A stretch of 41,601 nucleotides of DNA from Prevotella sp. (GTDB taxonomy: Bacteria; Bacteroidota; Bacteroidia; Bacteroidales; Dysgonomonadaceae), in NCBI GenBank assembly GCA_031273295.1, contig JAISSD010000183.1:1-41601 (forward strand), given 5' to 3'. The notes below the pieces were generated by a model. The model saw nothing but the letters and a program-made list of their open reading frames with translations, ran no database searches and was not told the origin of the DNA. Below, piece after piece: positions 13,154 to 22,534 of the stretch. The translations under genes were made by a program, and so were the position numbers. Each line of letters opens with the position of its first letter. Positions within the stretch are counted from its first letter, which is position 1.

Positions 13154-14911
13154 TTACCAAACTACCGTATAATTTATATCGTCAAATTCTTTGTCGAGGC
13201 TGGTGAATTTTATTGTCGGAGCTGTGGCTGTGGCTACGGTTTTCTGGATTGATACATTTGCTGTATTGGAATTGGTGGTGTTCCAGGTACCGTACCAGTC
13301 AAATTCAGCGCCGGTTGTCAGCAATAGCCATCCTGTCCCGGAGTTTGGCGTCGCAGTCCATGGGGCCTTGTAGGTAACCTCGAAGGTTTTTATCCCTGTC
13401 GCCGAGCCGACGGAGGTTACTGCTGGATTCGTAACTACGATCGCCCTGCCCTTATATTGGTAGATCTCAATTTTCTTTTCGAAGTTGATCGCTTTCAAGG
13501 TGATAGAGCCTGTGCGAGACGCAGGGCCAGTGTCAAGGTCAATTGCAGCCAGGCTGAAAGACAGGTTGCCGTTGCCGGTTATGGGGCTGGCGCTGGTTGG
13601 CGATACATTTGTTATCCAGTTGTCGCTGGTTGAGGCCGACCACTTAACGCTACTCGGTGCGGTCACGGCGAGTGTGCGACTTTTGGCTGTACCGTCATAA
13701 CGCAGTTGCGTCTTGTCGATTTTCAGCTTGTCGTCATCTTTGACCGCCACGCCCAAAACGGACAGATTCCAGTCCTCGATATGGGCCTCCACTTTTACGG
13801 CCTCGTCGAATGCAGTCTGCTGGTTTGGCGCACCGTTGTAGGTAACATCCTGTATCGTGATGGTGTAGAGATGGTTGCGCAGAATGTCGCCGTAGCTTTT
13901 CGGGTTGGTTATTGCGTTTCCGCTGCCATCGAATTCGGGAATGTCCACCCGGTAATAGCTTACTTCACTTGCGCCATTGTATTTTCCTCCCACTATAATG
14001 GCGGTGGCATGTTTTTTGTCAGCTGCCGTAACGACGCCCGCAGCCTCGAATGTATAAATGCTGTGCGTTATTGCATCAGGGGAGGAGGCGGTTTTGTTGT
14101 AGTTCTCTGTTGGCGTTAATTCAGTACCTGTGCCGGTCGGTATCCAGGCTTTTTTTGCTGTATTTTCCGGATTTGTTGTACTCCAGAAATTGCTATCCCC
14201 GTCCTTGTAAGAGATGTGTCCTTTGGTTTTGCGGTTGAAGATACAGGCGTTCACCAGCGTGAATTTACTTGAAAGTATATCGCTTTTCAGCTTGACGTCG
14301 ATACGCGCCAGCATACGTATCATTGGAATCGGGTTTGCAATCTGACTGCCTGATACGCCTAACGTGGCGGTTTCGTCGGTGTTGTTGAATATTATCGCAT
14401 TAGTGACGGCGGCCATCGGTATGTATTTTATATCGGAGGCGCCATTAATTTTGGCAGGCCATTCACCGGAATGAGTGACAGTCAGCTTTTCCAATGCATC
14501 GGGAAGCTTATCGGCGCTTGATAGATTTGACGCTGCAATCTCGGCATTGCAGTTAGCCAGAATAACAAAACGTTGACTGCTGCCGCTGTACCGCCTCATT
14601 TGAGCATTGAAACTGCCGCCTGGTATAATTGCGCCTGCCCGCGAGTAATTGTAATAAAAATTTCCTCCCCTGGTGTTGTCTTTGACAAATGCCAGTACGG
14701 TGATCTCGTTTATCTTCTGTTCATCATCTCCAGTCATGGCATAGGCAGTGGCGCCCTGCATATCGGCGGGCAATGCCAGACGGAATGTTACTTCTTTTTC
14801 TTCGGATTCCGGTAGTATTGTATCATAATTCTCGTCTATGCACGAAGTACCCGGCAAAATGACGGTAGCCAGTAACAGGAGGCCTATTGTTATGTTGTGT
14901 ATTCGGTTCAT
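13154..14911 (-). CDS. Fimbrillin (FimA/Mfa-like) protein with C-terminal BACON-like domains
   Basis: 585 aa lipoprotein (LPGTSC); fimbrillin-like N-terminus; KTQLRYDGTAKSRTLAVTAPSSVKWSASTSDNWI... BACON-type repeats. Confidence 0.7.
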   Translation of the reverse strand: MNRIHNITIGLLLLATVILPGTSCIDENYDTILPESEEKEVTFRLALPADMQGATAYAMTGDDEQKINEITVLAFVKDNTRGGNFYYNYSRAGAIIPGGSFNAQMRRYSGSSQRFVILANCNAEIAASNLSSADKLPDALEKLTVTHSGEWPAKINGASDIKYIPMAAVTNAIIFNNTDETATLGVSGSQIANPIPMIRMLARIDVKLKSDILSSKFTLVNACIFNRKTKGHISYKDGDSNFWSTTNPENTAKKAWIPTGTGTELTPTENYNKTASSPDAITHSIYTFEAAGVVTAADKKHATAIIVGGKYNGASEVSYYRVDIPEFDGSGNAITNPKSYGDILRNHLYTITIQDVTYNGAPNQQTAFDEAVKVEAHIEDWNLSVLGVAVKDDDKLKIDKTQLRYDGTAKSRTLAVTAPSSVKWSASTSDNWITNVSPTSASPITGNGNLSFSLAAIDLDTGPASRTGSITLKAINFEKKIEIYQYKGRAIVVTNPAVTSVGSATGIKTFEVTYKAPWTATPNSGTGWLLLTTGAEFDWYGTWNTTNSNTANVSIQKTVATATAPTIKFTSLDKEFDDINYTVVW

Positions 14912-14972
14912 TTATACAAGAAAAAATTATAACTACTTATAGTGAAAAACCTTCTATAATATCTTTTTTTAG

Positions 14973-15929
14973 TTACAATCCCGGCGTGACGGGCGCGCTT
15001 TCCCATCCCACAAGGGTGACCGTGATATCGTTAACGTCCACAAAAGAGATCTGTATCGAAATGCGGGCTTCCTCCCCGTCGACGATTGCAATGTTGTTGT
15101 CCTTTATGAATTTTTCCAGGTCGAGACTGTATAGCGCCGTGTCGTCGCCGGCGTTGTCAATTACGTCTATGGTAACCGGGTTGTCATTACCGAAGCGCAG
15201 CACGTCGCAACGCGCGCTCGCTGTTTTGTTCTTTGTATCCACTACCACCTGCGGGTAGTAGTCTACAAAATCTCCCAATATTTTCATGTCGAAATCATAC
15301 GCCGCTTTCAGGTTGCCGATTCGTATGACGGGATAATCCTGCGGAAGCGTTTCCGCCTTTGTGTTCGGCAATTCCAAAACCGTCACTTTCAGTTTGATAT
15401 GGGCCGGCTTGAAAAGCACCGGCACCCGTAAATCCTGATATTGCACTTTGGTGAATGTCACCTTCCCGTAATAGAGGGAGTCGTTGGTGGGTATCGCATT
15501 ACCGGGAGCATAGGTCAACGCCCCGTTGTAATTGGGGTGGTAAACTCTGCCTTGTCCCATATTGCATCCTTCGGCAAAGCCGTCTATTTTTGTGTCGTGG
15601 AAAGCGTTTCCCCAGCAAACAGCCGTATAGGTACCCGGAGGAAGCGCCAGGGTTACATCCTGTGGCGTTTTCATGATCTTTTCCAGCACGAAGTTGCCCT
15701 CGCTGTCGAAAATACCGGTAGTGACCTGCCCGATGTTGTCGGGAAAGCTAACGCTGTCGTCGTCGTCCGGATCCGGATTCGGAACGTTCAGGTAACTGAA
15801 TACCAGCACGGTGTTCTGGTCGGGCGGGCAATTACTCAGGTCTTCGCCTATCTCGCAGCCCGTGAACAGTAGCGCTGCTATTGCCGTCAGCATGGAAAAT
15901 ATATTTACCCTGATTCCTGTTCGTTTCAT
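14973..15929 (-). CDS. FimB/Mfa2-family fimbrial anchor lipoprotein
   Basis: Start at internal Met (MKRTGIRVNIFSMLTAIAALLFTGCEIGEDLSNCPP); family-typical GEDLSNCP and TAVCWGN motifs. Confidence 0.85.
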   Translation of the reverse strand: MKRTGIRVNIFSMLTAIAALLFTGCEIGEDLSNCPPDQNTVLVFSYLNVPNPDPDDDDSVSFPDNIGQVTTGIFDSEGNFVLEKIMKTPQDVTLALPPGTYTAVCWGNAFHDTKIDGFAEGCNMGQGRVYHPNYNGALTYAPGNAIPTNDSLYYGKVTFTKVQYQDLRVPVLFKPAHIKLKVTVLELPNTKAETLPQDYPVIRIGNLKAAYDFDMKILGDFVDYYPQVVVDTKNKTASARCDVLRFGNDNPVTIDVIDNAGDDTALYSLDLEKFIKDNNIAIVDGEEARISIQISFVDVNDITVTLVGWESAPVTPGL

Positions 15930-15962
15930 TATATGCATGGTTAGATTACAACACTTCCCCAT

Positions 15963-15982
15963 CCCCCTCCTTTTGGAGGGGG
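15963..15982. terminator. Hairpin CCCCCTCC-TTTT-GGAGGGGG between fimbrillin and FimB/Mfa2 genes
   Basis: Perfect 8-bp stem, 4-nt loop; no clear T tract on either strand. Confidence 0.4.
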
Positions 15983-16060
15983 CCTCTTCCCCATGTTGCC
16001 GGGGAAACGGGAGGGAGTGTTTGTTCTTGATTTTTATTGAAGACTGGTCTTCTTTTCTTT

Positions 16061-17272
16061 TTAGAATACAGGATCTATATTTTGGGGCGCCCAGTTTTGT
16101 ACTGACACGGTAGCAGTTACGCTTGTTTGAGAGTTTCCACCCGGTATTGGCTCATCTTGGAGGTCGCTCGCGTCAAACTGTACATTTGAAATTATATATA
16201 CTTTACCGGCTTCGAAATATGGGACAATATCCCCGCCTGTGGTATTTTTATAGTTGGTCACGACCAAGTATTTTGTGTTGCCTGAGTACAGTAATTTGAA
16301 AACGATTATCGGAACCGCTCCGAATTGGAAGCTATCCGTAACTCCGTCAATCACCGTGTACATCATATTACCTACATATGTACCTTGACTATCCTTCTTT
16401 TGTGCGGGAACAACGCTAAAGCCCCATTTATTTGTTGGTGTATATGCCGCTGCTCCGGTTTTTCCCGTAAAATGAATGTGGAAGTTGGGATCATAACCAG
16501 TACTCCACACGGTAGCGTCGAAAGCGTATTTGATTGCATTAGTATCATAAGGATATTTGCCAGGATCGATACTAATCATTTTAAAAGTATTATTAATAAA
16601 GATATCCGTTAGCTCAAAGTTCGCTGTTGGCACTTTGTGTTCAATTCCGCTTAACTCCATACGGGCGACAGCCGGCTTTAGTACAATGGACACAGGCGTG
16701 ATTGAACCTACTACCGGCGTAAATGTTCCTTTAGCAAACAAGTGGAGATGATTTACAGGGTCTTGTTGGTCTGCTATTTTAAACATCAGTGTTTTGAGTG
16801 TTGCAACTGTTGTTGCTCCATCGGTGATAGTAACAGTCGATCCGGCTTCATTAGTCACAGGGCCTGCTGCTCCGGAGCCACTAGACTCTATATTCCCAAT
16901 GGCGTAATAAGTAGTGGCTGTGAGGGGGATGTCTCGGACTAACTTGCTTGCTCCAGCTGTTATCTCACTCATATTCGCTGAAGAAACTGTCACTGTGCGC
17001 CAGACGGTATTATTAGTATCATCATCATCATCATCACTATCTGTAAAATAGATAATCACATCATGGAGATCCGGGTTTTTATCCTCATAGCTTACCACAT
17101 CGTCTGGCGCATAAGCATAAGTGGAAGCTCCGGGTACAGCCACTTTCAGACTTATAGTCTGCGTACCTGTGGCAAGCTCGTCCACAGGAGTGTCTACGTC
17201 GGCATTGCTACAAGCAGTTGCGCCCAATGCCAGCACAAGCGCCATGCTTAAATAACTGAATAATTTTTTCAT
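16061..17272 (-). CDS. Mfa1-like major fimbrial subunit
   Basis: 403 aa; MKKLFSYLSMALVLALGATACSNAD lipoprotein signal; overall fimbrillin pattern with C-terminal ATVSVQNWAPQNIDPVF strand. Confidence 0.82.
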   Translation of the reverse strand: MKKLFSYLSMALVLALGATACSNADVDTPVDELATGTQTISLKVAVPGASTYAYAPDDVVSYEDKNPDLHDVIIYFTDSDDDDDDTNNTVWRTVTVSSANMSEITAGASKLVRDIPLTATTYYAIGNIESSGSGAAGPVTNEAGSTVTITDGATTVATLKTLMFKIADQQDPVNHLHLFAKGTFTPVVGSITPVSIVLKPAVARMELSGIEHKVPTANFELTDIFINNTFKMISIDPGKYPYDTNAIKYAFDATVWSTGYDPNFHIHFTGKTGAAAYTPTNKWGFSVVPAQKKDSQGTYVGNMMYTVIDGVTDSFQFGAVPIIVFKLLYSGNTKYLVVTNYKNTTGGDIVPYFEAGKVYIISNVQFDASDLQDEPIPGGNSQTSVTATVSVQNWAPQNIDPVF

Positions 17273-17642
17273 CTTGTTTTTAATTTAAATGGTTTTTTAA
17301 AAATTAATAATTAAAATAATTTTCGTTCTCTTTGTTTATAGATTCATGTCTCATTGTGTTTTGCTCTCATTTTGATACATCTCCCCAATCCTTCCAAAAG
17401 GGCAGTCGCCAACTGTCTCCCCTCAAACGGGAGAGGAATAGTCCCTCTAAAGGAAGCGCCAAGGGGTGTTATTTTTCGTCTTTTCATTTTTTCATGTCAT
17501 GCCGCCTTTTCAAGGCGAATCTATTCCAATCCTGTCCGTAATCCGGAGCGTTGTCCGGTCTGTATTTTTGTATTGCCATGTCAGGTTTACAAGCTTGAAA
17601 TCCCGGTTCTTTTCCAACTTCGCCAAAGAAGCAGGCTTGTCA

Positions 17643-18200
17643 ACTTTTCATTTTTCCGTCGTCAAGGGTACGTTCTACCCTGCTGTCTTCCCCACCGGGA
17701 TTTCCCTGCACTCCGTTTCGTCGATTTCCGGTTTTGCTCCTCAAACCAACGGATTGCAAACGCCTTCAATATCGACCTCCGGATTTCGAATCCGGAAAGG
17801 CGGGAGCGTTGTTATTCTTTTCGCTTCTTTGCTTTTCATTTTTTCCGTCATCATAGACTTGTTCTACCCTGTTATCTTCCCCACCGGGATTTCCCTGCAC
17901 TCCGTTTCGTCAATTTCCGGTTTTGCTCCTAAACCAACGGATTGCAAATGCCTTCAATATCAACCTCCGGATTACGGATCCGAAAGGGTGGGAGCGTCGT
18001 TATTCTTTTCGCTTTTTCACTTTTCATTTTTATCGTCATCATAGACTCGTTCTACCCTGTTATCTTCCCCCACCGGGATTTTCCTGTACTCCGTTTCGTC
18101 GATTTCCGGTTCCGCTCCTAAAACAAACGGATCAAATCCTTCAATATCGACCTCCGGATTCCGAATCCGGAAAGGTGGGCAGGAGTCTTGATCTCTCCCG
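17643..18200. repeat. Three tandem direct repeats of about 189 bp
   Basis: Anchor GTTCTACCCTG at 17672, 17861, 18049 (spacing 189 and 188); shared CACCGGGATTT.CCTG.ACTCCGTTTCGTC.ATTTCCGGTT. Confidence 0.92.
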
Positions 18201-18329
18201 ATTAAAACCATGCGGATTATCTCAACCCACATGGTTTCGACAAACTTTACAAAACTACACTTCGTGAAACTCCCTTCACGACTCTCCTGGTTCCACTCCC
18301 TTTTTACCGGGGAGAGGAGGGAGAGGCTG

Positions 18330-19868
18330 TTACTTCTTTAAGTCTTTTAAGTCTTCATTTTTTTTCTTGTCATCGAACAACACTTTGATATAAGCCGCTA
18401 CGCGCAGTTTAGGAAAAAAATTCCTGTACATGTACCGGTACGGCTCTCCGCCTGCCAGCTTCATCAATTCGCCTCTGCGTCCCATATTCCGACGGCTGTC
18501 CCAGATAGGCGTATTGTCGATAATGTCGAGTACCCGGTCGCGGTAAGGCATTGAAGAGGCGGCTACCAGCGTCCGCAATTCCCTGTAATTCAGTTCGCCG
18601 TTGTAAGTGATGAACCGGATATCCCCGAAACGTGTCCGCTTGGAGATATACTCTTTAAGAGCTTTTGCGCGACGATCGGCCAGGGTCTTGTTTATGGCCG
18701 CACTTCCTTCCGGCGAGGCGTAACCGGCTATGAAAACCGCTGTTACCCGGCTGTCCGACGAAGCTTCGATATCCCGGATGGAACGGATGATCTTTTCCAG
18801 TTCTTCGTAGTTGTCCGCGAAATCCGGATTAACCCTGAAACTGCCTTGCGGGAATCTGATGTCCAGGGAATTTTTACCGGTATTGGTATCGGCGAGCAAC
18901 AAGTGTTCGGAATTGCTTTCCAGTATATGTTCGAGGGCGTTCGCAGACAATTTGACAACATACGGATGGGTTTCAGCCAGTTTATCTCCGGTGGTTACCG
19001 CCGGCTCTTCAGCAGGCTTGTCTTTGTCTTTCGCGGCGGCCTGGTTTTCGGCGAGTTTGTCTCCGGATGCGGCCCGGTTTTCGAAAGAATCTACAATCGC
19101 TTTCTCTATGGCGTTTTCCTTGCCTGTTACGGCGGGTTCATTTTCAGCTTCGGGCTGTCGTGCCGCCAACTCAGGCTTTGTAATTTCAGGAAGAAGATCA
19201 TCCGGTGTGACGCTCCGCACCGGTTTGGCGGTTTGTCCTATTCGGTAGGCTATGCTTATTCCCGCCCGTGTAGGCCCGAAATATTGCACGGTTTCTTCGC
19301 TGACCTGTTTTCCGCAGTTTCCGCACAGGTATTTACCGTGGCTCAGATGAGCATAACCGGCTCCGATATTGAACTCCAGACCCCAGCGATTGCCGAGTGC
19401 GAGGTGGTAGCCGTAGCTTATTCCCGCGCCGTATGCAGAACCGTCGTAACGGTATTCTTTTTTGAACAGCAAAGGGACGTCTATTCCTCCGACATTGTAA
19501 CGCGAATAAAGACCGTGCAAGCCCGCGAAATGCCCGTTGAATGCCTCCTTGAGCCAGTAGCGGTATTCTCCTTGCAACATGTAATGCTTTATTTTCCGGC
19601 TATCGTCGAATGTCCATGGGTTGTATCCTGCGCTGAGGGCGAGGCTCATGCGTTTTCCAGTCCTGTATTCCAGTCCCAGATTGGGCGTTGCCGTAGCGCC
19701 GTACAGCAGGTTTGTTTTGATCGCCAAACGAGGAAGTCTGCTACTGTCGGAATTCTGTTGTACCGTAGCCTTGCTTCCCACTGCTGCCAGCAACAGCACT
19801 GCAAGCGTCATATTCTTTATACGGGAGTTTTTCTGTCCGATCCTTTTCCGTGTTTTATTTTGTTCCAC
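18330..19868 (-). CDS. DUF3575 + OmpA-like protein associated with fimbrial loci
   Basis: 512 aa; LAIKTNLLYGATATPNLGLEYRTGKRMSLALSAGYNPW (DUF3575) and OmpA-like VFIAGYASPEGS...LADRRAKALKEYI. Confidence 0.85.
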   Translation of the reverse strand: MEQNKTRKRIGQKNSRIKNMTLAVLLLAAVGSKATVQQNSDSSRLPRLAIKTNLLYGATATPNLGLEYRTGKRMSLALSAGYNPWTFDDSRKIKHYMLQGEYRYWLKEAFNGHFAGLHGLYSRYNVGGIDVPLLFKKEYRYDGSAYGAGISYGYHLALGNRWGLEFNIGAGYAHLSHGKYLCGNCGKQVSEETVQYFGPTRAGISIAYRIGQTAKPVRSVTPDDLLPEITKPELAARQPEAENEPAVTGKENAIEKAIVDSFENRAASGDKLAENQAAAKDKDKPAEEPAVTTGDKLAETHPYVVKLSANALEHILESNSEHLLLADTNTGKNSLDIRFPQGSFRVNPDFADNYEELEKIIRSIRDIEASSDSRVTAVFIAGYASPEGSAAINKTLADRRAKALKEYISKRTRFGDIRFITYNGELNYRELRTLVAASSMPYRDRVLDIIDNTPIWDSRRNMGRRGELMKLAGGEPYRYMYRNFFPKLRVAAYIKVLFDDKKKNEDLKDLKK

Positions 19869-19944: not shown

Positions 19945-20343
19945 CTATATGAATTGCAGGCTGTATTCTTGCCGTCCGTCCGTGCCGTTTGCCAAAGCCT
20001 TGTCCATCCACGGCAGATATGGCAGGCGGAGACTGTAACGGCAATGGAGCGAACCGATATCCGGTGCAGGAGCCTCAAACACCTTGTATATTCCGTAATC
20101 TTTCAGGATCGCCTCCCTCTTCCAAAAACCGGCCATCGACCGGAAGCCCCGGTTGCGCCTGCGTCCGTTTATCATCACTGCCGGCAACTCCATCCGGCGA
20201 TCCTCCGTCGCCAGAACAGGAACCAGCCTGCGGGATTCGTCCCGCCCGAATGTTCCACACAATATGTCCATGTCCATCCGCACCTGTAAAAACCGCCCGC
20301 CCCTTCGCGACAGGCTCTTCCGTTTTATGAATATTTCGCACAT
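19945..20343 (-). CDS. Short DUF3868-like protein lacking a signal peptide and a C-terminal domain
   Basis: 132 aa; VRMDMDILCG...RRLVPVLATEDRRMELPAVMINGRRRNRGF...YSLRLPYLPWMDKA resembles DUF3868; in-frame TGA nine codons upstream excludes an N-terminal extension. Confidence 0.6.
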   Translation of the reverse strand: MCEIFIKRKSLSRRGGRFLQVRMDMDILCGTFGRDESRRLVPVLATEDRRMELPAVMINGRRRNRGFRSMAGFWKREAILKDYGIYKVFEAPAPDIGSLHCRYSLRLPYLPWMDKALANGTDGRQEYSLQFI

Positions 20344-20444
20344 AATTATCTTTCTTATGTTATATATTCAAAAAAAATGTTACTTTCGCATGGCCTGTAT
20401 GCCTTAAATGCTTGCACGCCGGTAAAATTGAAACAATCCCCTTC

Positions 20445-20472
20445 ATTTTCCGTCACTTACCCGTTGACGGAA
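20445..20472. repeat. Left copy (IR-L) of 28-bp perfect inverted repeat, candidate recombinase crossover site
   Basis: ATTTTCCGTCACTTACCCGTTGACGGAA; exact reverse complement of 21687-21714; internal dyad TTCCGTCA-N9-TGACGGAA. Confidence 0.95.
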
Positions 20473-20543
20473 CACAAATTGCACTGACAACAACATAATG
20501 TATTTCAACGGTACAAGGCACAAAAAACCGGGGGTATATTTTT

Positions 20544-20675
20544 TGTAAAACATTTTGTAAAACATTTGCCTCCTGAAAAAAGAGGAAAAGGGCCTTCCAA
20601 GCCTTTGTGCAAAAGGCTTTCGGCATATCCGGTACAGGCCCGGCGGAAGCGAATTTGTAAAACATTTGTAAAACA
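20544..20675. promoter_or_regulatory. Four TGTAAAACA direct repeats in two pairs upstream of araC
   Basis: TGTAAAACA at 20544-20552, 20556-20564, 20656-20664, 20667-20675 (12- and 11-bp spacing, pairs about 112 bp apart). Confidence 0.75.
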
Positions 20676-20704: not shown

Positions 20705-21574
20705 ATGAGCGATTTGCAGCGCACGGGAATTCTGAATTGCCCGAACGCGGATACGGGGCCGCAGGCCACGATCGAACTGGTACGTTCGGACAGGGGACCG
20801 TACATGGACGGAGTCTCCTTTGGCGACGAACTGATATTTGTTTTGAAGGGGCGGGTACGCCTGTCTTTCGCGGGCTATGCCAGCACCGCAATTGAAGAAA
20901 ACAACTTTGTATTCCTTCCCGCGGATTGCCGGTACCGGGCCGGATTCCGGGCCAACAGCCTCATGCTGGTCATGCGTCCGTGCGAGAAAATACAGTTCTG
21001 TGATTGCCTGCGCGGGGAAGACCTGGCGACCTGTTTCAGCACCGAGGAGCAGGAGGATCCAATTGATACCGGACACATGTCGATACTGGAAATAAAGCCA
21101 CAGATACGGTCGTACCTGGATCTGCTGCGTGAATGCATCGAACAGGGGATGTGCTGCAAGCTGTACTACCGCAACAAGATCAGGGAGCTGTTTTTTCTGT
21201 TGAGGGCGTTTTATTCCCGGCAAGAGCTGGCCCGCTTCTTCCACAGGTCGCTTAGCCCGGACACCGCTTTTTCCACCTATGTTATCCACAACAGCCACAA
21301 GCACAAATCTGTAGCGGATCTGGCCGGTGCGATGAACTATACTGTTTCAGGCTTCGAAAAGCACTTCAAGCGCGTGTTCGGAGTGGCGCCATACAAGTGG
21401 ATGCTGGGGCAGAAGGCAGAAAGGATCTACCACGAGATCTGTTTCGGAGAGCGCAATTTCAAGCAGATAAGCGACGACTTCGGGTTTGCCACCGTCTCGC
21501 ATTTTGTGGCCTTTGTCAGGGGCAAACTGGGAGATACGCCCGGGAATATCAGGCGCTTCGGATTCAAGGCGTAA
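20705..21574 (+). CDS. AraC-family transcriptional regulator
   Basis: 289 aa; N-terminal cupin-like region; C-terminal HTH_18 pattern KSVADLAGAMNYTVSGFEKHFKRVFGVAPYKWMLGQKAERIYHEI...KQISDDFGFATVSHFVAFVRGKLGDTPGNIRR. Confidence 0.93.
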   Translation: MSDLQRTGILNCPNADTGPQATIELVRSDRGPYMDGVSFGDELIFVLKGRVRLSFAGYASTAIEENNFVFLPADCRYRAGFRANSLMLVMRPCEKIQFCDCLRGEDLATCFSTEEQEDPIDTGHMSILEIKPQIRSYLDLLRECIEQGMCCKLYYRNKIRELFFLLRAFYSRQELARFFHRSLSPDTAFSTYVIHNSHKHKSVADLAGAMNYTVSGFEKHFKRVFGVAPYKWMLGQKAERIYHEICFGERNFKQISDDFGFATVSHFVAFVRGKLGDTPGNIRRFGFKA

Positions 21575-21660
21575 ATTTGATATAAAAAGGCGTAAATTGG
21601 TAACGGATATTCCAAAAAAAATCCTGTATTTTGCAGCGTTGTTTCGAGAGCGAAAACATG

Positions 21661-21686
21661 AAAAAACAAGGCGGCTTGATCGCCTT
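21661..21686 (-). terminator. Intrinsic terminator on minus strand just inside IR-R
   Basis: Minus strand AAGGCG-ATCAAGC-CGCCTT-GTTTTTT (arms 21686-21681 and 21673-21668; T run 21666-21661). On the plus strand the same hairpin is followed only by TTTT. Confidence 0.6.
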
Positions 21687-21714
21687 TTCCGTCAACGGGT
21701 AAGTGACGGAAAAT
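21687..21714. repeat. Right copy (IR-R) of 28-bp perfect inverted repeat
   Basis: TTCCGTCAACGGGTAAGTGACGGAAAAT; exact reverse complement of 20445-20472. Confidence 0.95.
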
Positions 21715-21735
21715 ATTCTAGACATCAACAAATTA

Positions 21736-21766
21736 CAAAGATAGCAATCCAAACTTGATAAATCAA
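21736..21766 (-). promoter_or_regulatory. Bacteroidales consensus promoter pointing into the araC inverted-repeat segment
   Basis: Minus strand TTG-N20-TATCTTTG (-33 21766-21764; -7 21743-21736), located 22 bp outside IR-R. Confidence 0.75.
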
Positions 21767-22534
21767 CATCTCCGGATGGTTTTAACATTTTGCCCGTTCA
21801 GGGCCGGCAGGCAAAACAGCCTTTTATCCCGCTGCTGTCCCCGAAATTCACTACTACAGCCGCCGGATAATCCGGGTTAATTTTTTATATTTTTTAGAAT
21901 TCAATTGCAGGCGCATGAAGCCCGGCAGGAGATAATAATTTTCCGGTCCGGTAAAATCCAGTCTTTTTTTTGCAATCCGGAAGCGAAACTGCCCGAATGA
22001 TTAAATGCATTGATTTACAGATATTTATTCCGGTTCTGTTTTGATGCTTAATGCAGATTGAAATCGTAAACTGCATGTTATCAGTGAATTATAAAATCAA
22101 CAATCAAATATGGTTAATCTTTCTTAATACGTCCTGTTGATTATTTGGCGTTTATGTAAAGCGCCTGAATATTTACGAATTTTTTAACCGCAAAGTACGC
22201 AAAGAAGGCGCAAAGAACGCAGAGCATTCATTCTACAAAATTACCTGCTTTTTTTATATTGCAGATACAAGGTACGGACTATCCCTGTTTCGACCCCGGA
22301 TATCCATGCTTTGGTGGTAGCCATTGCATGGAACTTGAAGAAAATGACGGGAAAACCGGGAGAAAAGTTGGCATTTCAGTCCCCTTTCTAAAATTTTTTA
22401 TGCATCTTTGACGGGATTTTGTTGCATTTGAAACTCGAATCTGCGGAGCGACCAATACAAGATATATGAAATGTGTGCAGGTCGGCAATCTCTTGTTTTT
22501 TGTATCCGGAGTTGGATAAATTGATATAAAAACC

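Follow-up and report, generated by a model that had tools for sequence, protein, structure and literature searches.

The window analysed here is a stretch of 41,601 nucleotides, part of contig C120 in the 4.17-Mb genome of a Dysgonomonas-type bacterium. It carries two inverted repeats of 28 nt, IR-L and IR-R, which are 100% complementary and enclose an araC-type gene on a segment of 1270 bp (~1.3 kb). A type V pilus cluster lies to the left of the segment, and araC is now divergent from this fimbrial operon. The regulator has a C-terminal HTH_18 domain, as AraC/XylS proteins do, and both araC and the fimbrial ORFs are intact. The features of the locus, with their positions in the window, are:

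13154-19868, minus strand: fimbrial cluster (type V pilus), left of the inverton, with DUF3575/OmpA, a 403-aa protein, Mfa2 and a FimA-type fimbrillin
19945-20343, minus strand: DUF3868-like gene (132 aa) that opens the fimbrial operon, separated from IR-L by 101 bp
20445-20472, plus strand: left inverted repeat IR-L, ATTTTCCGTCACTTACCCGTTGACGGAA, containing GTCACTT, as do the repeats of relatives
20542-20564, plus strand: TTTGTAAAACA repeats in tandem within the leader of araC, where a regulator might bind
20654-20675, plus strand: second TTTGTAAAACA pair, directly 5' of araC; relatives have similar TGTTAAACA pairs
20705-21574, plus strand: araC-type regulator, 289 aa, inside the inverton (HTH_18, Pfam PF12833, E=2.6e-11)
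21568-21573, plus strand: GGCGTA, the leading half of a 21-bp direct repeat; the P2 box follows 58 nt downstream
21589-21594, plus strand: GGCGTA again, 21 bp further downstream, a candidate AraC-type site
21626-21633, plus strand: predicted promoter P2, -7 box GTATTTTG (TA-N1-TTTG, one base short of the consensus), recognised by position
21661-21686, minus strand: hairpin AAGGCG-ATCAAGC-CGCCTT-G-TTTTTT (U6), from a terminator scan; it resembles a terminator for RNA made from P1 as the segment now lies
21687-21714, minus strand: right inverted repeat IR-R, which pairs with IR-L
21736-21766, minus strand: predicted promoter P1, inward-facing, with -33 TTG at 21766-21764, N20 and -7 box TATCTTTG at 21743-21736
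21782-21787, minus strand: TGTTAA, a putative activator site; the -7 box of P1 follows 44 nt downstream

In relatives, TTTGTTAAACA pairs are the counterpart of the TTTGTAAAACA pairs of the window, and these resemble the TGTTAA element at P1.

The genome holds two further copies of the element. One, on contig C6 (L006), has the same repeat around araC and 90% DNA identity. The other, on C203 (L007), is truncated by the contig end, which falls inside araC (L007:15373-15644), with repeat collapse as the probable cause, and the left half of this copy was not found. The orientation is identical in all three copies. Among araC homologues, in related records mostly from Dysgonomonas, the flanking repeats scored 22-30 in 12 loci and at most 13 in all others, and the repeats of the 12 have a common core resembling GTCACTT-N4-AAGTGAC. 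The counts of promoter boxes given below were anchored on the repeats and made on 12 loci (the window, L006 and ten of relatives), of which several are closely related (window and L006, L043 and L057, L049 and L055), so that the effective number is nearer 8 than 12.

The first-pass annotation had described a fixed promoter just outside IR-R, TTG-N20-TATCTTTG on the minus strand at 21766-21736, facing the segment. It is present there, with the 5' end of its -7 box 29 bp from IR-R. Its agreement with the promoter consensus, which had been called excellent, stands for one half: the -7 box is kept in the sister copies, but the -33 TTG is not, and we rejected the TTG as evidence of a promoter because sister copies lack it. 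TTG-N19-21-TAnnTTTG has just four occurrences on the two strands of the 41.6-kb window. TAnnTTTG is the Bacteroides -7 box, and altering the box abolishes promoter activity (PMC4747536; PMC12632263). The exact box stands at the P1 position in 9/12 loci, where shuffling gave a mean of 1.2 and a maximum of 5 in 300 shuffles, and TAnnTTT(G/A) is found in all 12 (shuffled mean 2.6). These inward boxes begin 22-52 bp outside the repeat in the 12 loci, on the recombinase side. By these counts the putative promoter P1 belongs to the conserved parts of the cassette, and a fixed promoter facing in from outside the right repeat is backed by the comparative data. An inward promoter on the left, TTACTTTCGC (20380-20389), which might drive araC in the present orientation, was rejected as a conserved part; TTACTTTCGC was found only in the window and L006, TACTTTCG also in L043, and TAnnTTTG in that region in 0/12 loci.

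A second predicted promoter, P2, was overlooked in the first-pass annotation. Its site is 3' of araC, between the araC stop and IR-R, and it points out through IR-R at present. TAnnTTTG occurs in this region on the araC sense strand in 10/12 loci against 0.74 expected, a count that falls to 9 without the window’s match over the araC stop, which is not kept in the sister copies; the opposite strand has none, and seven control strands or regions have 0-1/12. The exact box is at the P2 place in nine relatives’ loci. The match over the stop, TAAATTTG (21572-21579), was rejected as P2, as it is lost in L006 and L007, and GTATTTTG is conserved in position. As P2 points out of the segment, inversion would aim it at the fimbrial operon. 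The segment would then present a promoter, predicted by box and position, to the operon in one of its two orientations. A search of the 101-bp gap between IR-L and 20343 agreed with the earlier statement that no TAnnTTTG there faces the fimbrial genes. In six loci the operon begins only 32-67 bp from the repeat, too near for a promoter of its own, and there is no excess of boxes in the gap, which makes P2 the natural promoter of the operon.

Two further observations concern the DNA beyond P2. A 14-codon ORF, MKKQGGLIAFSVNG and a stop (21658-21702, plus strand), lies just after P2, overlaps the hairpin and ends inside the repeat; it is kept in L006 and loses its start codon in L007, and could be a leader peptide or chance. 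Outside the inverton, CCGGATAATCCGG (21863-21892, plus strand) is another terminator-like stem, with T-rich DNA after it. P2 transcripts could end there as the segment now lies; the stem is kept in L007 and disturbed in L006.

Both predicted promoters have a conserved element upstream. TGTTAA precedes the P1 box by 43-45 nt in 10/12 loci (mean 0.14 and maximum 3 over 1000 shuffles), and GGCG(G/T)A precedes the P2 box by 57-59 nt, also in 10/12 (shuffle mean 0.38, maximum 4); for both motifs, discovery and counting used one set of loci. The GGCG element falls in different araC frames or outside araC, and so is conserved as DNA. In the window and L006 GGCGTA is doubled at 21 bp, a spacing that we take as typical of AraC-type direct repeats; one published account describes the use of direct repeats by the AraC family (PMC9723621). 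These 21-bp-spaced GGCGTAAAT repeats upstream of P2 are candidate AraC sites. The recombinase led to a held-out set of five araC invertons in other genera of the family, which had P1-like boxes in 4/5, P2-like boxes in 3/5, TGTTAA at the right distance in 1/5 and GGCG in 0/5. By these counts the anatomy of the cassette generalises and the exact motifs mostly do not. The segment in the window is best read as the regulator-carrying inverton of a tyrosine-recombinase cassette that is found in Dysgonomonas and related genera.

The orientation of each locus can be read from the tyrosine recombinase, which in relatives lies on the P1 side and has the same reading direction. By this landmark L059, L100 and L179 are in the connected orientation, with the remaining loci disconnected like the window. 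In the non-invertible homologues L044, L047 and L048, araC, P2 and the operon are fixed co-directionally, and the GGCG element and P2 box are present. From the connected relatives and these fixed homologues we infer that the state in the window is OFF. The earlier proposals that the present orientation is disconnected, and that after inversion araC would be sense to P1 and co-directional with the fimbrial genes, are both backed by this comparison.

We consider it likely, from the conserved boxes and their arrangement, that the segment is a two-connection switch, in which one flip would link P1 to araC and P2 to the operon, and that the present state breaks both links. In the connected orientation, opposite to that of the window, P1 would transcribe araC through a leader of ~280 nt, while P2, carried on the segment, would fire outward into the fimbrial operon. 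The GGCGTAAAT direct repeats are the probable route by which AraC would activate P2, and the TGTTAA site may serve it likewise at P1. As the segment now lies, P1 would read antisense into araC, with P2 facing away from the fimbriae. Transcription from P1 may stop after ~65 nt at the hairpin on the inner side of IR-R, a local refinement in this genome.

The first-pass annotation had given that hairpin a larger part, as an orientation-dependent terminator at the core of the switch. The terminator scan did find it on the minus strand at 21686-21661, with only TTTT when read the opposite way. Its stem has ~ -7.1 kcal/mol, and together with the leader before it z is -2.2. The region is rich in terminator-like sites (18 against 8.3 expected), so the hairpin alone says little. 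It was found at this place only in this genome’s three copies, and was absent from the araC invertons of all ten relatives. Substitutions in L006 and L007 leave the minus-strand stem at -5.6 kcal/mol as opposed to -7.1, while the plus-strand stem has -7.2/-7.3 through G-U pairs. This pattern, from three sequences, hints at an absence of selection for an OFF terminator, and we rejected the hairpin as a conserved OFF device: it is lineage-specific and its minus-strand stem decays in the sister copies. Possible roles for it are a terminator working in both directions or, in the P2 transcript, a leader hairpin; it looks like a real but local extra, not the core of the switch.

This bears on the possibility that P1 alone matters, its transcript stopping at the hairpin when OFF and, when ON, reading through araC and past a weakened terminator, with the fimbrial genes joined in a single long operon. 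The hairpin and its U6 are present, the U-run is longer in the OFF-reading direction, no fimbrial promoter was found in the gap and the same principle has been proposed for C. difficile cwpV (PMC2784873). Such an arrangement is nevertheless unlikely, given the fate of the hairpin in relatives and sisters and the conserved P2 downstream of araC, which the non-invertible homologues also have. Read-through from P1 past araC, as the annotation had it, is unnecessary if P2 supplies the fimbrial promoter after inversion.

A tyrosine recombinase family, with identities of 48-72%, adjoins the araC inverton in most relatives. Within the genus, matches at E<1e-150 occur only in genomes with high-scoring araC invertons, and of 394 genomes sampled from the order, no more than two from outside the family match at E<=1e-120. 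The sole member in this genome is on another contig (G000:C310; L151:6989-8305). It has 438 aa and the intact catalytic residues R258, H356-R359, H382 and Y391, in the R..K..HxxR..H..Y arrangement of PF00589. No inverted repeat was found near this gene, and no recombinase gene adjoins the window element or L006. The 432-aa gene to the right of L006 was rejected as a recombinase, since it is HipA; where the recombinase would stand, that locus has a HipA-type gene with both the N- and the C-terminal domain, and an ORF of 118 aa (L006:3000-4654, minus strand). Members of the recombinase family also adjoin invertons of ~0.5 kb without araC but with the same GTCACTT...AAGTGAC repeat (L155:8388-8931, L156:1431-1963, L158:4615-5099). 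One contig of a relative (L160:1-486, G008:C5) starts with 71 bp that recur inverted at 416-486, comprising the repeat with 48 bp of its outer flank, as would be seen had the sequenced DNA included both orientations of a small inverton.

Only one orientation was seen in this genome, while both occur among the relatives. The copies could be relics that no longer invert here, with an unlinked recombinase and permanently silent fimbriae; the single orientation of all three, the imperfect P2 box and the HipA gene where L006 would have its recombinase fit such a locked state. We regard this as very unlikely, since the 28-bp repeats are perfect, araC and the fimbrial ORFs are undamaged, the genome has one intact recombinase of the family and a B. 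fragilis recombinase with distant targets is known (PMC4747536). The 1.3-kb segment is probably able to flip, and the C310 enzyme probably flips the copies in trans. It is less probable still that the present divergent orientation is the active one, with AraC, aided by the TTTGTAAAACA repeats, acting on a promoter of non-canonical type at IR-L or in the 101-bp gap, for although these repeats are now on the fimbrial side and most sequenced loci have this orientation, operon gaps go down to 32 bp, boxes are absent from the gap and the non-invertible homologues hold araC co-directional with the operon.

If the switch makes two connections, as we favour, a positive-feedback circuit can tentatively be drawn, in which AraC made from P1 would activate both P1 and P2 through its sites at fixed distances. 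The DNA flip, combined with this self-activation of the regulator, would make the pili switch bistable and memory-like. When disconnected, the P1 antisense RNA to araC, shortened here by the hairpin, might reinforce OFF. The two-connection reading predicts an all-or-none, regulator-reinforced phase variation of pili, and a defined family of repeats and recombinases is now available for testing.

Promoter invertons are well known in gut Bacteroidales. Here a transcription-factor gene and a promoter would move jointly past a second, fixed promoter, so that one recombination rewires two transcription units; models that consider promoters only can misplace the source of a surface operon’s promoter. 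In the open-access literature we found nothing on invertons or phase variation in Dysgonomonas, nor on AraC with DNA inversion under Bacteroid- names. In Salmonella the H-segment inverted by Hin comprises a gene and an outward promoter for the neighbouring operon, the gene being a serine-type recombinase. The segment described here likewise has a gene and an outward promoter, but the gene is an AraC regulator and the recombinase lies outside. Type 1 fimbriae of E. coli are controlled by fimS, a promoter inverton of ~0.3 kb that is flipped by tyrosine recombinases and has no regulator gene. Phase-variable fimbriae under a promoter-bearing inverton are the shared feature, whereas the type of fimbria is unrelated and the regulator gene is absent from fimS.

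C. difficile cwpV, like P1 here, has its promoter outside the inverting segment, with an intrinsic terminator proposed to act in the OFF state 60-70 nt from the start (PMC2784873). Its segment has no promoter and no part of an ORF, whereas here araC and P2 are on the segment, and the hairpin here is not conserved as a maintained OFF terminator would be. The B. fragilis tyrosine recombinase BF2766/tsr19 inverts the promoters IVp-I and IVp-II, one enzyme serving a local and a distant site (PMC4747536). The likeness extends to the tyrosine recombinase, the inverted repeats, TAnnTTTG on the flipping segment and the surface-structure operons. The B. fragilis segment is described as a promoter; the segment in the window also has a regulator gene, and a conserved fixed promoter outside it that would drive that gene.
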